From assembly GCA_947448525.1 (NCBI GenBank), contig CANFNV010000002.1, positions 178,633-242,632 on the forward strand: 64,000 bases of DNA, read 5' to 3'. Made by a program: the position numbers and the translations under genes. The stretch is from Flavobacteriaceae bacterium (lineage in GTDB: Bacteria > Bacteroidota > Bacteroidia > Flavobacteriales > Flavobacteriaceae). Shown here piece after piece: positions 8,475 to 14,036 of this stretch (positions are counted from its first letter, which is position 1; every line of letters begins with the position of its first letter). Under the pieces are notes generated by a model. The model saw only the letters and a program-made list of their open reading frames with translations. It searched no databases and was not told the DNA's origin.

Positions 8475-9092
8475 ATGTTAGATTTCTTTGTTTCACAATA
8501 TAAAAACACCTCAACAATCCAAATCATTTTGGAATTTTTGGCTTTTGTATTAGGAATAATAAGTGTTTTTTGTGCTAAAAAAGAGAATATATGGGTCTTT
8601 CCTACGGGATTAATTTCAACATTAATAACAGTTTATTTATTGTATGAAGCACACTATTTTGGAGATATGACAATGAATTTTTACTATTCTGTAATGAGTG
8701 TTTATGGTTGGTATAAATGGACTTCAAAAAAAACCACCCCCAATTTAAAAATTACAAAAACCACAAGAAAGGAACAAAAAATGGGAGTAGGATTTTTTCT
8801 CTTGACCATAATTATTACTTATTTAGTTTATGTTTTTTTTGATTATAAACTTGAAATTCCTAATTATATTGATATTTTTACGTCAGGAATATTTTTTACA
8901 GGCATGTGGTATATGGCTTTAAAAAAAATTGAAAACTGGACATTATGGATTTTTGGCGATATAATTGCAGTTCCATTATTTGCTTATAGAGGACTTGGAA
9001 TGCTGTCGTTACAATATTTAATATTTACAATTATCGCCATTTTTGGCTATTCAGAATGGAAGAAAATCTTAAACAACAACCTACAGAAATAA
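8475..9092 (+). CDS. pnuC: PnuC-type nicotinamide riboside (or thiamine-like) transporter
   Basis: The 205-residue integral membrane protein has about seven hydrophobic segments and the PnuC-family WYKW motif (VYGWYKW, ~76-82). PnuC proteins are facilitated-diffusion carriers for nicotinamide riboside, and a kinase traps the substrate by phosphorylation. The 37 bp overlap with the next gene, which starts with a NadR-like kinase domain, fits this. A caveat is that thiamine-specific relatives (PnuT) in Bacteroidota are linked to TPP riboswitches and TonB receptors, and such a riboswitch-receptor pair lies 2.6 kb downstream. Substrate is therefore uncertain, though the kinase link favours nicotinamide riboside. 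Confidence 0.88.
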   Translation: MLDFFVSQYKNTSTIQIILEFLAFVLGIISVFCAKKENIWVFPTGLISTLITVYLLYEAHYFGDMTMNFYYSVMSVYGWYKWTSKKTTPNLKITKTTRKEQKMGVGFFLLTIIITYLVYVFFDYKLEIPNYIDIFTSGIFFTGMWYMALKKIENWTLWIFGDIIAVPLFAYRGLGMLSLQYLIFTIIAIFGYSEWKKILNNNLQK

Positions 9093-11176
9093 TCAAAATT
9101 GCACTATTTGGACCAGAATCTTCTGGAAAAACTACTCTTGCATCACAACTCGCATCAGCATTTAATACTGTTTGGATTCCTGAATTTGCACGTGATTATT
9201 TACAAGATAAATGGAATTTTAAACAAGAAATATGTTCGCAAGAAGATTTAATTTCCATTGCAATTGGGCAAACCAATCTTGAAAATGAAGCTTTAAACCA
9301 AGCTAATAAACTGCTTTTTTGTGACACCAATTTGCTGGTTACTAAAGTTTATTCAGACATCTATTTTAATAATTGTGATGCAATTCTTGAAAACGCAGCC
9401 AAGTCACATAAATATGAACTAATTTTTCTTACTGATGTTGATGTTCCTTGGCAAGCAGATGATTTGAGGGACAAACCAAGTGGCAGAGAAAACACATTAG
9501 CTATTTTTGAAAAGGCATTAATTGATTTTCAAAAACCGTATATTAAGTTGTCTGGAACCAAGGAAGAGCGATTAGAAAAAGCAACCAAAATCACAAATGA
9601 CTTTCTAGAAGCCAGAGAATTAGGGCTAAATTCATTTGACTTTATTAAAATTTATCATCGGAATATTAAAATGGAAACCATAAAATTTCAATTTAACATT
9701 TTAAAAAATGGAATTCCAAAAATCCTTCTTGATCGAGCTGCAGTTAAAAACGACGGAATAACAGCACTTTCAGAAGAAGAAGCCAAATATTTTTCTAATT
9801 TTTTTGATGATAAAAAAACAAGCTTGAAACTCAAAAAGTTCGTTCCGGCATCCGGAGCAGCTAGTAGAATGTTTAAATTTTTAAATGAATTTTTAAATGA
9901 ATTTAAACTTGGCGAAGAAAGCATAAATGCATACATAAACAGAAAAAAAGATAAAAATTTACCTGTTTTTTTAATAGCTAAAGAAAAATTACCCTTTTAT
10001 ACTGAGGTTTTAGAAAAAGCCAAACTAACATTTCCCGAATATAATTCCTGGGAAAAAGACCTCAAAGATTTTGGATTTATTAAAACCATGATTTCTCCAA
10101 AACAGTTTGATTTTGCCAACAAACCTAAAGGTGTTTTGCCTTTTCATAAATACGAATCCCATACATCTACGGCGATTGAAGAACACCTAAACGAGTGTGT
10201 TTTCTATGCTGCATCTAATGAAAAATCATTCATTCATTTTACGGTTTCCCAAGAGCATCAAGAAGATTTTGAAGCGATAATAAACAAAGTAAGAGGTAAA
10301 ATTGAAAATAAATCAAATGTAAATATTGATGTTAAATATTCGTATCAAGATAAATCTACCGATGTTATTGCCCTAGATTTAGAAGGAAACCCATTTAGAG
10401 ACGAGAATGAAAGTATTGTCTTCCGTCCGGGAGGTCACGGTTCTTTGATTGACAACCTGAATAATTTGAATGCCGATATTGTTTTTATTAAGAATATTGA
10501 TAATGTGATTCAAAATCATATAGAAATCATCTCTTTATATAAGAAAGCCTTGGCCGGAATATTAATTCAACATCAAGAAGCTATTTTTAAGCATTTGAAA
10601 CTGCTAAATAGCAGTTCGATTTCTAATGAAGATTTAAACCAAATTGAGAATTATATCAAATTTAATTTGAATATAGGAATTAAAGACGATTTTATAAAAT
10701 ATACTAAAGAAAGTAAAATAGACCATTTAATAACTATTTTAAATAGGCCTATTAGAGTTTGTGGAATGGTAAAAAATGAAGGTGAACCTGGTGGTGGACC
10801 ATTTTGGGTAACTGATAAAAAAGGAAAAACATTTCTTCAAATAATTGAGTCTTCTCAAATGGATAAAAAAGACGAAAATCAAATAAAAATATTTGAAAGT
10901 GCTACTCATTTTAATCCAGTAGATTTGGTGTGTGGAATTAAAAATTACAACGGACAGAAATTCGATTTGAATCAATATATTGACCCTAATTCTGGTTTTG
11001 TAGTTGAAAAAAATCACAAAGGTAAACCCTATAATGCTTTTGAGCTTCCTGGATTATGGAATGGAGCCATGGCTAAATGGATGACTATTTTTGTTGAAGT
11101 GCCTTTAATAACTTTTAATCCAGTTAAAACGGTTAACGATTTATTGAAACCCTCACACCAACCTTTAGATTTCTAA
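9056..11176 (+). CDS. Fusion of NadR-like ribosylnicotinamide-kinase ATPase and DUF4301 domain
   Basis: A single 706-residue frame. Residues ~10-190 are a P-loop domain like the C-terminal kinase half of NadR: Walker A GPESSGKT at 19-26, then WIPEFARDYL, FCDTNLLVTKVYSD and a Walker-B-like LIFLTDVDVPW. From ~195 to the end it matches DUF4301, with a conserved core KFVPASGAASRMFKFL, then FRPGGHGSLI and a Gly/Pro-rich NEGEPGGGPFWV. DUF4301 has no established function that I can name. The usual N-terminal region of DUF4301 (FIK...FQFNILKNGIPK) is present, so nothing appears missing at the junction. Overlap with pnuC suggests a role in salvage of a nucleoside-like vitamin. The stop codon overlaps the next start. 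Confidence 0.8.
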   Translation: MEENLKQQPTEIIKIALFGPESSGKTTLASQLASAFNTVWIPEFARDYLQDKWNFKQEICSQEDLISIAIGQTNLENEALNQANKLLFCDTNLLVTKVYSDIYFNNCDAILENAAKSHKYELIFLTDVDVPWQADDLRDKPSGRENTLAIFEKALIDFQKPYIKLSGTKEERLEKATKITNDFLEARELGLNSFDFIKIYHRNIKMETIKFQFNILKNGIPKILLDRAAVKNDGITALSEEEAKYFSNFFDDKKTSLKLKKFVPASGAASRMFKFLNEFLNEFKLGEESINAYINRKKDKNLPVFLIAKEKLPFYTEVLEKAKLTFPEYNSWEKDLKDFGFIKTMISPKQFDFANKPKGVLPFHKYESHTSTAIEEHLNECVFYAASNEKSFIHFTVSQEHQEDFEAIINKVRGKIENKSNVNIDVKYSYQDKSTDVIALDLEGNPFRDENESIVFRPGGHGSLIDNLNNLNADIVFIKNIDNVIQNHIEIISLYKKALAGILIQHQEAIFKHLKLLNSSSISNEDLNQIENYIKFNLNIGIKDDFIKYTKESKIDHLITILNRPIRVCGMVKNEGEPGGGPFWVTDKKGKTFLQIIESSQMDKKDENQIKIFESATHFNPVDLVCGIKNYNGQKFDLNQYIDPNSGFVVEKNHKGKPYNAFELPGLWNGAMAKWMTIFVEVPLITFNPVKTVNDLLKPSHQPLDF

Positions 11177-11577
11177 TGGAACAACAAAGGATTTTATCTG
11201 AATTAAGTTTCAAAGCTGTAAGAAGTTCTGGCGCTGGAGGTCAAAACGTAAATAAGGTTTCTTCTAAAGTGATTTTGACTTTTGATTTATTAAACTCATT
11301 AGCTTTGTCTGATGAAGAAAAAAAATTATCTCAAAAAAAATTAAAATCGAAACTAACTCTTGAAGGAATTCTAATTTTGAATTGTGATGAAGACAGAAGC
11401 CAATTAAAAAACAAAACCATTGTTACCAAACGCTTCCTAGAAATTATAGAAAAGTCATTAGTGGTTCCAAATCCAAGAAAAGCTACTAAAATTCCAAAAT
11501 CCGTGATAGAAAAACGGTTAAAAGACAAGTCTTCCATTGCCGAAATAAAGCAAAACAGAAAGAAACCAGAGTTATAA
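11176..11577 (+). CDS. arfB: ArfB/YaeJ-type peptidyl-tRNA hydrolase for ribosome rescue
   Basis: The 133-residue protein has the class I release-factor catalytic GGQ in SSGAGGQNVNKVSSKV (~16-31) but no stop-codon recognition domain. It ends in the basic tail typical of ArfB (KDKSSIAEIKQNRKKPEL), which enters the mRNA channel of stalled ribosomes. The enzyme releases peptides from non-stop complexes independently of a stop codon. It begins in a TAATG overlap with the fusion gene upstream, so it is probably translationally coupled. Length and motifs are normal. Confidence 0.92.
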   Translation: MEQQRILSELSFKAVRSSGAGGQNVNKVSSKVILTFDLLNSLALSDEEKKLSQKKLKSKLTLEGILILNCDEDRSQLKNKTIVTKRFLEIIEKSLVVPNPRKATKIPKSVIEKRLKDKSSIAEIKQNRKKPEL

Positions 11578-11653: not shown

Positions 11654-11660
11654 ACCTGTC

Positions 11661-11740
11661 TCAAAAGGGGTGCTCTAAATAACGAGCTGAGATTATACCC
11701 AATGAACCTGAGCAGGTAATGCTGCTAAGGGAAAAATGAC
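11661..11740 (+). ncRNA. TPP (THI-box) riboswitch
   Basis: The conserved THI-box elements appear in order: GGGGTGC (11667-11673), GCTGAGAT (11685-11692), ACCC (11697-11700), GAACCTGA (11704-11711), the CAGGTAATGCTGC segment and AAGGGA (11728-11733). TPP binding should switch off the downstream TonB-dependent receptor. No intrinsic terminator is obvious in the 100 bp before the ATG, so translational control is more likely. Confidence 0.93.
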
Positions 11741-11776
11741 AAACTAATTTATAGTGTGCTCGCTATATATTGTCAT
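11736..11776 (+). promoter_or_regulatory. Stem-loop after the TPP aptamer
   Basis: ATGACAA (11736-11742) pairs with TTGTCAT (11770-11776), and TATAG (11750-11754) with CTATA (11763-11767) inside. There is no T-run. It may be part of the expression platform. Confidence 0.45.
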
Positions 11777-11843: not shown

Positions 11844-14036
11844 ATGGAAATTTTATTTAGTCAAAATTCAAAGTTCAAAATTCGGAAGTCAAAAGCATTT
11901 TATCTGGTATCTTTTCTCTTTTCACTTTGTTCTGCTCTCTCCTTCTCTCAAGAAAAACCAAAAGATTCTACCAAAGTTACACAACTTGATGACGTTTTAG
12001 TTTCGGCAGTTCGAGCCTACAAGAATAATCCGGTTACGTTTACCAACGTTAGTAAGGAAGAGATAGCTCCCAGGAATTTAGGACAAGATATTCCCATCTT
12101 ACTAAACTATTTGCCGTCTGTTGTTACCTCTACAGATGCCGGAAACGGAGTAGGGTATACATACATGCGTGTTCGTGGTGCCGATGGCTCAAGGGTTAAT
12201 GTTACGCTCAATGGCGTTCCGTTTAACGATAGTGAAAGCCACGGTACTTATTTTGTAGATTTACCTGATTTTGCTTCTTCCATAGAAAGTATTCAATTGC
12301 AACGAGGTGTTGGAGCTTCAACCAATGGTGCCGGTGCTTTTGGAGCTAGTTTGAATGTGCAAACTAAATCGATTCAAGAAAAAGCGTATGCAGAAATTTC
12401 GAATTCAGTTGGAAGTTATGCTACGAGAAAACACACGTTAGCTTTCGGAACCGGCTTGCACAATAATTTTGAAATCAATGCCAGAATTTCCGAAATAGCT
12501 TCAAATGGGTATATTGACCGAGCGTCAAGCAAAATGTTTGGGTACTTTTTTAATTTGAATTATCTTAAAAAATCAACATCAATACAATTTCTTGCTTTCG
12601 GTGGAAAAGAAAAAACGTATCAAGCATGGAATGGCATTGAAGATTTAGATAAACTCGAAAATGACCGAACTTTCAACCCATCGGGAATGTATTTTGATGC
12701 CAACGGCATCATGAAATTCTATGATAATGAAACTGATAATTATTGGCAAAATCACTTTCAATTGCATTGGTCCGAAAAATGGTCCGAAAAATGGATTTCG
12801 AAAGTTGCTCTTCATTACACTTTAGGGAAAGGTTATTATCAGCAATACAAGCAAGATCAGATTTTAGCCGATTATAACTTTCCCGATTATCAATCCAATA
12901 CCACTTCCGATTTAATTCGGAAATTATGGTTGGATAATGGCTTTTTCGGAACCACATTTTCATTAAATTACAAAAATAATAAAACCGACATTATTTTTGG
13001 CGGTGCTGCTAATCGGTATTTAGGAAAACATTTTGGCGAAGTAGTTTGGACGCAGTATTATGTGCCATCTACCAATAGATATTACAATAATTACGGAAAT
13101 AAAGACGATGTTAATTTCTACACAAAAGTTTCACAAACTCATGGTAAAATAAACTTTTATGCCGATTTGCAATACCGATTGGTTTTTTACAAAGCATCGA
13201 GTATTTATTTTAATGATGTTAACGATTCGTTTCATTTTTTCAATCCTAAAGTAGGTACTAACTACCAATTGAATGCCAAAAATGCCCTTTATGCTTATAT
13301 TGGAATTGCAAACAAAGAACCACGACGCGAAGATTATGAAAATGGAAGTGTTAAACCAGAACATTTATTAGATTATGAATTGGGATGGAAGTACAATTCT
13401 AAAAAAGTAGCTATAAATACTAACGCTTTTTATATGAAATATAAAGATCAGTTGGTGATGACCGGCGCCTTGAACAATGTGGGATCGCCTGTTTTTACTA
13501 ATAGTGGCGACAGTTACCGTGTTGGATTAGAAATCGAATCGGTAATTAGACTTAACTCTCGATTTAGATTGCAGCCCAACATTACCATAAGTCAAAACAA
13601 AAACAGAGATTTCTATTTTCAACGCGATGGCATTCTAGAAAACTTAGGAACCACTAATATTGCTTTTTCTCCCAACATTATCTTTGGTAATGCTACTACA
13701 TTCGAACCCATTAAAAATTTAAACCTAATTTTGTTAAATAAGTTTGTGGGCAAACAATTTATGGGAAATATCGATTCTCAAAGATCTATTTTGAAAGATT
13801 ACAATGTTCATGATTTTAATATTACCTATTTGTGGACCATAAATAAAGGAATTCAATCGATACTTTTTTCTGGATTGGTAAATAATGTTTTCAATCGAAA
13901 GTACATTTCTAATGGATACTTTTATACTTATGATGATACTTATTCAACACCGGGTGTAACTAAAACCATTCAAGGTTCAGGGTATTATCCGCAAGCAACT
14001 AGAAACTTTTTAATTGGCGCTACTTTGAAGTTTTAG
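11844..14036 (+). CDS. TonB-dependent outer-membrane receptor, predicted thiamine uptake
   Basis: The 730-residue receptor has a signal peptide (~18-36), a TonB-box/plug region with LDDVLVSAVRA and the plug core YMRVRGADGSRVNVTLNGVPFNDSE..., then a beta-barrel ending in aromatic NFLIGATLKF. Members of this family import large or scarce nutrients using TonB energy. The TPP riboswitch in its leader makes thiamine or a thiamine phosphate the likely substrate. No inner-membrane thiamine transporter follows; the nearest candidate is the PnuC-like gene upstream on the same strand. The first ~15 residues before the signal peptide are encoded by a short direct repeat, so the true start may differ, but no later start codon fits. 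Confidence 0.9.
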   Translation: MEILFSQNSKFKIRKSKAFYLVSFLFSLCSALSFSQEKPKDSTKVTQLDDVLVSAVRAYKNNPVTFTNVSKEEIAPRNLGQDIPILLNYLPSVVTSTDAGNGVGYTYMRVRGADGSRVNVTLNGVPFNDSESHGTYFVDLPDFASSIESIQLQRGVGASTNGAGAFGASLNVQTKSIQEKAYAEISNSVGSYATRKHTLAFGTGLHNNFEINARISEIASNGYIDRASSKMFGYFFNLNYLKKSTSIQFLAFGGKEKTYQAWNGIEDLDKLENDRTFNPSGMYFDANGIMKFYDNETDNYWQNHFQLHWSEKWSEKWISKVALHYTLGKGYYQQYKQDQILADYNFPDYQSNTTSDLIRKLWLDNGFFGTTFSLNYKNNKTDIIFGGAANRYLGKHFGEVVWTQYYVPSTNRYYNNYGNKDDVNFYTKVSQTHGKINFYADLQYRLVFYKASSIYFNDVNDSFHFFNPKVGTNYQLNAKNALYAYIGIANKEPRREDYENGSVKPEHLLDYELGWKYNSKKVAINTNAFYMKYKDQLVMTGALNNVGSPVFTNSGDSYRVGLEIESVIRLNSRFRLQPNITISQNKNRDFYFQRDGILENLGTTNIAFSPNIIFGNATTFEPIKNLNLILLNKFVGKQFMGNIDSQRSILKDYNVHDFNITYLWTINKGIQSILFSGLVNNVFNRKYISNGYFYTYDDTYSTPGVTKTIQGSGYYPQATRNFLIGATLKF

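Follow-up and report, generated by a model that had tools for sequence, protein, structure and literature searches.

The locus and its fused gene

The window studied here is a stretch of 64,000 nucleotides from a Flavobacterium genome (assembly GCA_947448525.1, contig CANFNV010000002.1, positions 178,633 to 242,632 of the forward strand). Positions 9056–11176 of its forward strand form one uninterrupted open reading frame (ORF) of 706 residues, in which a NadR-type P-loop kinase is joined to a DUF4301 domain. This gene is preceded by pnuC and followed by arfB, a thiamine pyrophosphate (TPP) riboswitch and the gene of a TonB-dependent receptor (Table 1). We consider it likely that the locus is a thiamine-salvage cluster in which the NadR-like kinase replaces thiamine pyrophosphokinase (TPK), while DUF4301 is a separate enzyme of the UDPGP type.

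An earlier note on this DNA had described a NadR-like kinase fused in frame to DUF4301 and coupled to PnuC, and had placed DUF4301 in vitamin or nucleotide salvage. The fusion itself was confirmed. Pfam matched AAA_28 at residues 14–172 (E 2.8e-40) and DUF4301 (PF14134) at residues 195–702 (E 1e-193), and the start codon is backed by homologues that begin ME(E/K)xLxQ. The coupling to PnuC is borne out by the locus, and both junctions given in the note were correct: pnuC ends at 9092, overlapping the start of the fusion by 37 bp, and arfB starts at 11176, the last base of the fusion's stop codon at 11174–11176 (TAATG, a 1-base overlap). The motifs PASGAASRMFK and GGHGSL lie at residues 264–274 and 459–464. 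DUF4301 is single-copy in the window genome (2.15 Mb, 33 contigs, 90% complete). In its nearest relatives, L052 and L083, whose DUF4301 is 77–81% identical, the two domains are fused alike, as they are at nearly all kinase-carrying Flavobacterium loci, which rules out an assembly or sequencing error. A model of the 706-residue fusion (pLDDT 84.8) consisted of two folded domains, with about four residues between the last helix of the kinase (169–188) and the first of DUF4301 (193–201).

Of 297 genomes sampled from the phylum, 52 carry DUF4301. Neighbourhoods were collected for 50 of these loci (at most 18 kb each) and for 80 named loci (at most 17.5 kb each), and the neighbouring genes were mapped by BLAST. 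The order in Flavobacteriaceae is syntenic, though individual genomes miss some genes, and runs ahcY (reverse), a phosphopantetheinyl transferase, PcrB, an 86-residue Thiamine_BP-like protein, pnuC, kinase, DUF4301, arfB, TPP riboswitch, TonB receptor and greA. The 86-residue protein matches PF01910 slightly under cut-off (E 5e-5) and YkoF weakly; its gene lies 5' of pnuC at most unfused loci, and none was found at Flavobacterium loci, the window included. arfB is missing from several clusters that are otherwise intact and is probably an operon passenger.

Table 1. Features of the locus, in positions of the window; functions are predicted from the evidence in the last column.
Feature	Position	Strand	Evidence
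PnuC-family transporter, 205 residues, best read as thiamine transporter PnuT (predicted)	8475..9092	+	NMN_transporter, TIGR01528, tree
NadR-type P-loop kinase domain, residues 1–189, predicted thiamine kinase	9056..9622	+	AAA_28, Walker motifs, distribution complementary to TPK
DUF4301 domain, residues 191–706, UDPGP-type nucleotidyltransferase fold	9626..11173	+	PF14134, AlphaFold2, Foldseek, profile matches
PASGAASRMF motif, counterpart of the nucleotide-binding loop GxGTRxG	9845..9874	+	G267 and R271 invariant
K358 (PKG), counterpart of the UTP-phosphate lysine (AfUAP1 K148, AnUGP K135)	10127..10129	+	Invariant; PKG aligned with 3oc9
GGHGSL motif; H461 counterpart of AnUGP H228 (PPGHGD motif)	10430..10447	+	Invariant; profile alignments
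N480-I-D482-N483, counterpart of the N-x-D-N Mg2+/sugar-site motif (AnUGP N256/D258)	10493..10504	+	N480 and D482 invariant
K691 (FNPVKTVNDLL), counterpart of the essential catalytic lysine (AnUGP K403; cf. AfUAP1 K437)	11126..11128	+	Invariant
arfB, alternative ribosome-rescue hydrolase	11176..11577	+	NF006718, 117.7 bits, over cut-off
TPP riboswitch	11656..11751	+	RF00059, 46.5 bits, E 5.7e-8
TonB-dependent receptor, predicted outer-membrane thiamine receptor (OMthi/Omr1-like)	11844..14036	+	Pfam Plug and barrel; conserved position behind riboswitch

The thiamine setting

The riboswitch is the only TPP riboswitch found in the window genome. Its score lies under the gathering score of 54.3 and it was found by E-value; it aligns with RF00059 over the full length and keeps the TPP-binding core (CUGAGA, ACCC, GAACCUG, AGGGA), and one internal hairpin of the consensus is missing. 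A covariance model was then built from 21 such elements, the window's included, so that the window's score with it is not independent. With this model the element was found in 74 of the 80 named loci, and it also occurs at most Flavobacteriaceae loci of the other locus set. None was found at the NadR-PnuC loci checked.

The arrangement resembles the thiamine operon of gut Bacteroidetes, OMthi-pnuT-tnr3, in which Tnr3 is a TPK and of which OMthi is known in B. thetaiotaomicron (PMC5613172). Both have a TPP riboswitch, a TonB receptor, a PnuC-type transporter and a kinase gene adjoining the transporter. However, the place of the TPK is taken at the window locus by the NadR-type P-loop kinase, loci of the window type add DUF4301 and, in relatives, the Thiamine_BP-like protein, and the riboswitch stands before the TonB gene only. 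The window kinase is an AAA_28 P-loop protein and lacks the TPK_catalytic fold (PF04263). ThiC is absent from the window genome, and 11 of the 13 other Flavobacteriaceae lack it too, so that thiamine or a precursor has to be imported in these genomes.

The kinase and the transporter compared with NadR and its PnuC

The earlier note was thus right about a vitamin-salvage setting; its choice of nicotinamide riboside (NR) as the vitamin was not supported. On that proposal PnuC would import NR, the NadR-like kinase would make nicotinamide mononucleotide (NMN), and DUF4301 would act on NMN or a related salvage product. It draws on real similarities: by phmmer the nearest solved relatives of the kinase half are the ribosylnicotinamide kinase domains of NadR structures (1lw7, 8x7f, 9x6f, 6gye), and the window PnuC (PF04973, E 1.6e-50) scores 90.6 bits with TIGR01528, over the cut-off of this NR-transporter model, which may not separate PnuT. 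Yet the kinase half falls far under the cut-offs of the NCBIfam NadR models, with 98.2 of 341 bits for TIGR01526 and 75.8 of 201 bits for NF005988, and no NMNAT domain was matched in the fusion, whose frame begins at the kinase. Walker A (GPESxGKTT) and the Walker-B-like D90-T91 are kept in all 36 aligned sequences. In the kinase tree the short kinases of the class Bacteroidia form a branch of their own (support 84), seemingly apart from NadR; the deep order of the NadR branches is weakly supported, and some rows of the tree are long-branched. NadR and the short kinase coexist in some genomes; a true NadR with NMNAT lies beside its own PnuC in G182, G202, G146, G186 and G049. In the Flavobacteriaceae genomes G182 and G202 this dedicated PnuC-NadR pair stands apart from the kinase locus, and no TPP element was detected beside it. 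The strong kinase matches in f18 likewise proved to be NadR.

In a quick PnuC tree the window PnuC fell in a branch (98*) with TPK-adjacent and many kinase-adjacent PnuC, away from the separate group formed by most NadR-adjacent PnuC, that of G202 being a long branch. In G230/G238 a PnuT-TPK pair is arranged in the same way as the PnuC-kinase pair. From its sequence relationships the window PnuC is best read as the thiamine transporter PnuT. In G017 (L274), the one f4 genome without the kinase, PnuC groups with the PnuC of order f2 (100*) and an intact TPK lies at G017:C11, which looks like a replacement by horizontal transfer.

The NadR models, the PnuC tree and the exclusion of the kinase by TPK, a thiamine enzyme (see below), together largely reject NR salvage, and we regard it as unlikely. 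The thiamine marks of the locus, namely the TPP riboswitch before the TonB gene, the Thiamine_BP-like gene in relatives and the replacement of TPK, point to another vitamin, and the kinase substrate is probably thiamine rather than NR.

Complementary occurrence of kinase and TPK

The same 297 genomes were searched with a kinase alignment, and kinase and TPK were counted in 74 genomes of the class Bacteroidia. Outside Flavobacterium, the genus of the window, 45 genomes had the kinase only and 11 had TPK only; none had both and none had neither (Fisher 6.7e-12 on phylogenetically uncorrected counts). One apparent double, G190, was recounted as having no kinase, its match being a true NadR with NMNAT. 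On these counts the kinase occurs where TPK is missing and fills the same genomic role. Within Flavobacteriaceae, TPK (PF04263) was present in 18 of 18 Flavobacterium genomes, three of which have lost the kinase, and in 0 of 13 genomes of other genera. In a second set of 50 named genomes all 17 Flavobacterium had TPK, five of them lacking the kinase at the locus, whereas TPK was missing from 30 of the 31 other genomes that carry the kinase there.

To see whether TPK had merely escaped detection, the search was repeated with a profile that combined Flavobacterium TPK with more divergent homologues, and its outcome argued against such an artefact. This profile found no TPK homologue in the 13 other Flavobacteriaceae. 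In two other families, 14 kinase-bearing genomes had only a decayed TPK, in which the N-terminal segment MSSHHxVxExQEP (MSSHH start) is kept and the catalytic motif GDxD is lost (L228-L240 and L242; G080, G138, G262, G122, G099, G214, G186, G111, G049, G194, G274, G002, G076, G146). TPK is intact, with GDFD, in G017, G190 and G250, which lack the kinase. The decayed homologues could be pseudoenzymes that have taken on another function, and one in G080/G138 sits close to the PnuC-kinase-TonB cluster.

Each of the 51 genomes searched for ThiL had it (in eight of these, all outside the class, only under the curated cut-off). The mutual exclusion of kinase and TPK, together with ThiL wherever it was sought, makes the kinase a candidate thiamine kinase that forms thiamine monophosphate (TMP), to be followed by ThiL. 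We infer that thiamine is the substrate of both transporter and kinase, and TMP the product.

A related possibility is that the kinase takes as its substrate a precursor or breakdown product of thiamine (hydroxymethylpyrimidine, HMP, or thiazole alcohol) or a different vitamer under TPP regulation. Precursor salvage would be plausible where ThiC is missing, as it is from most of the Flavobacteriaceae tested outside Flavobacterium. Against this, the kinase alternates with TPK, which acts on thiamine, the PnuT-TPK pair mentioned above is laid out alike, and TPK is the enzyme that decays; we find a substrate other than thiamine rather improbable.

Several observations weigh against a thiamine kinase. 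The riboswitch precedes the TonB gene only, and not pnuC-kinase-DUF4301, and at 20 kinase loci outside Flavobacteriaceae no TPP element reached the Rfam gathering score. The window genome has a TPK elsewhere (G000:C4), and its supply of TPP thus does not depend on the kinase. The association counts for kinase and TPK are not corrected for phylogeny, with the TPK-only genomes spanning four families, and the decayed TPK homologues were classed by motif loss alone. Algibacter pectinivorans (L135) is the only genome found outside Flavobacterium to combine the kinase with a TPK match (G332:C7:84985-85275, 75.4 bits). Two Aquimarina genomes (L118, L119) have neither TPK nor, at the locus, where alone it was looked for, the kinase; DUF4301 keeps its normal position, following ahcY and the phosphopantetheinyl transferase gene, although PnuC, kinase and the TPP-linked TonB gene are missing from the locus.

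On the thiamine-salvage reading, the TonB receptor under the TPP riboswitch would carry thiamine over the outer membrane, and thiamine would diffuse through the inner membrane by way of the PnuC-type transporter (PnuT). The small NadR-like P-loop kinase would then phosphorylate it to TMP, which would be trapped, and ThiL would make the diphosphate. The kinase would have taken the place of TPK in most of the class, with Flavobacterium having both and some of its species having dropped the kinase. If so, a widespread protein resembling an NR kinase would supply the thiamine kinase that has so far been missing in much of Bacteroidota, among them many Flavobacteriaceae in which ThiC is absent and vitamin B1 or a precursor has to be imported. 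This would close a gap in models of vitamin B1 metabolism, and the assignment of PnuC-kinase pairs to NAD salvage, likely a misreading, would be corrected. In the literature searched, mostly outside subscription journals, we found no prior description of this thiamine-kinase role or of the DUF4301 fold described below.

DUF4301 has a UDP-sugar pyrophosphorylase fold

DUF4301 was modelled with AlphaFold2 from 73 sequences (pLDDT 92.5) and the model was compared with the PDB by Foldseek. All 34 matches at E ≤ 0.001 were UDP-glucose, UDP-GlcNAc or UDP-sugar pyrophosphorylases (UGP, UAP and USP), the best at 6.4e-10, with probability 1.00, TM scores of 0.35–0.51 by query length and 9–16% identity. 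A DUF4301 profile searched against PDB sequences at E ≤ 10 gave only the UAP 3oc9 (0.0013), over the middle part of the domain, and the UGPs 7ppr (0.59) and 2i5k (0.98), over the C-terminal part, where FNPVKTVNDLL aligns with FLPVKTCSDLL of yeast UGP1 (2i5k). The UDPGP model PF01704 gave no match to the window protein in the Pfam scan; it matches the distant DUF4301 gene of G009 under cut-off (18.5 of 22 bits, E 5.5e-4). Partial PF01704 matches were also seen in ORFs of 1,114–1,134 residues (L171-L173, in G039, G014 and G033), and being partial, these were not taken as a UDPGP alignment.

Residues essential or important in UAP and UGP include AfUAP1 K148 and K437, the latter essential, and AnUGP K135, H228, D258 and K403 (PMC8386105, PMC10470519). 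The counterparts in DUF4301 (Table 1) were assigned from profile alignments and motif order rather than by residue-by-residue superposition, and G267, R271, K358, H461, N480, D482 and K691 do not vary among the sequences compared, 21 diverse ones and 73 from Flavobacteriaceae. The suggestion that DUF4301 looks catalytic is thus upheld by its UDPGP-type fold and by the invariance of every catalytic residue checked. DUF4301 shares with UGP and UAP the fold, the motif order and the checked catalytic residues (PK, GHG, NxDN, PVK), but its identity to them is low (about 9–16%), it scores under the PF01704 cut-off, and a long inserted segment separates its nucleotide loop from the PKG motif. Judged from fold and conserved residues, it is very probably an active nucleotidyltransferase of the UDP-sugar-pyrophosphorylase type. 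It would transfer a nucleotidyl group from a nucleoside triphosphate (NTP) in the reaction NTP + X-phosphate → NDP-X + PPi (NDP-X, the nucleoside diphosphate conjugate; PPi, pyrophosphate), with K358, H461, D482 and K691 as catalytic residues. Now that its fold, active site and probable type of reaction are available, the substrate can be sought directly.

The window domain is a full-length member of its family (PF14134), whose members usually stand alone at about 500–540 residues, the kinase fusion being found mainly in Flavobacterium. The earlier note had argued by association that DUF4301 serves vitamin salvage. The link to PnuC and the kinase stood within Flavobacteriaceae; outside this family neither gene was nearby at any of 24 DUF4301 loci, nor did these 24 share a recurrent partner gene. 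The evidence that the note had named as refuting its proposal was thus partly found. Association therefore does not assign DUF4301 to vitamin salvage, and a general tie of this kind is ruled out.

Origin of the fusion

Among the 80 named loci, 22 were fused and 44 had separate kinase and DUF4301 genes. Nine, from Flavobacterium or close to it, had no kinase, two (the Aquimarina loci) lacked both PnuC and kinase, and three were cut by contig ends. Fusions were seen in Flavobacterium, and the cases outside this genus include Croceivirga (L147) and G198. At unfused loci the stop codon of the kinase usually overlaps the DUF4301 start by 1–4 bp (commonly 1 or 4 bases), so that a single lost stop codon suffices for fusion. 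DUF4301 would thus have joined the operon in Flavobacteriaceae and been fused when the overlapping stop codon of the kinase was lost.

The fusion could instead be a true two-step enzyme, in which the kinase makes X-phosphate and DUF4301 adds a nucleotide, as in NadR or Fkp. Kinase plus nucleotidyltransferase is a known pattern, Fkp being a fucokinase/GDP-fucose pyrophosphorylase; catalytic residues are kept in both halves, and the fusion in Croceivirga and G198 extends it beyond Flavobacterium. However, each half occurs freely without the other. DUF4301 lacks a kinase at 12 Flavobacterium loci and has none nearby at the 24 loci outside Flavobacteriaceae, while the PnuC-kinase cluster occurs without DUF4301 in three Flavobacteriaceae genomes (G029, G088, G107), as the kinase does in most other Bacteroidia. 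The short gene overlap, moreover, makes fusion by stop loss easy. A two-step enzyme is thus disfavoured, and we judge it very unlikely. Slightly less likely still is its specific form, in which a bifunctional fusion would phosphorylate thiamine and then attach a nucleotide, giving Flavobacterium a nucleotidyl-thiamine compound (such as adenosine- or uridine-thiamine diphosphate) for storage or signalling.

On the reading of two independent enzymes, a putative thiamine kinase and a UDPGP-type transferase, the fusion most likely serves co-translation, the simplest reason, or stoichiometry rather than processing of the kinase product, and it appears to have no catalytic purpose. The kinase has also been joined elsewhere: in G072 (L252, G072:C28) a homologue lies in an ORF of 498 residues whose C-terminal half, judged by eye, is aldose-1-epimerase-like, so the C-terminus of the kinase tolerates partners. 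A TPP-like element (59.3 bits) lies near this gene.

Two loci were unusual in other ways. At L081 (G290:C54:1491357-1492843), where the kinase is absent, DUF4301 is split into two frames by one TAA, possibly through decay or a sequence error. L093 (CALPPA020000034.1), from a metagenome-assembled genome labelled Klebsiella pneumoniae, is a locus of the Flavobacterium type, which indicates that the bin is mislabelled or mixed.

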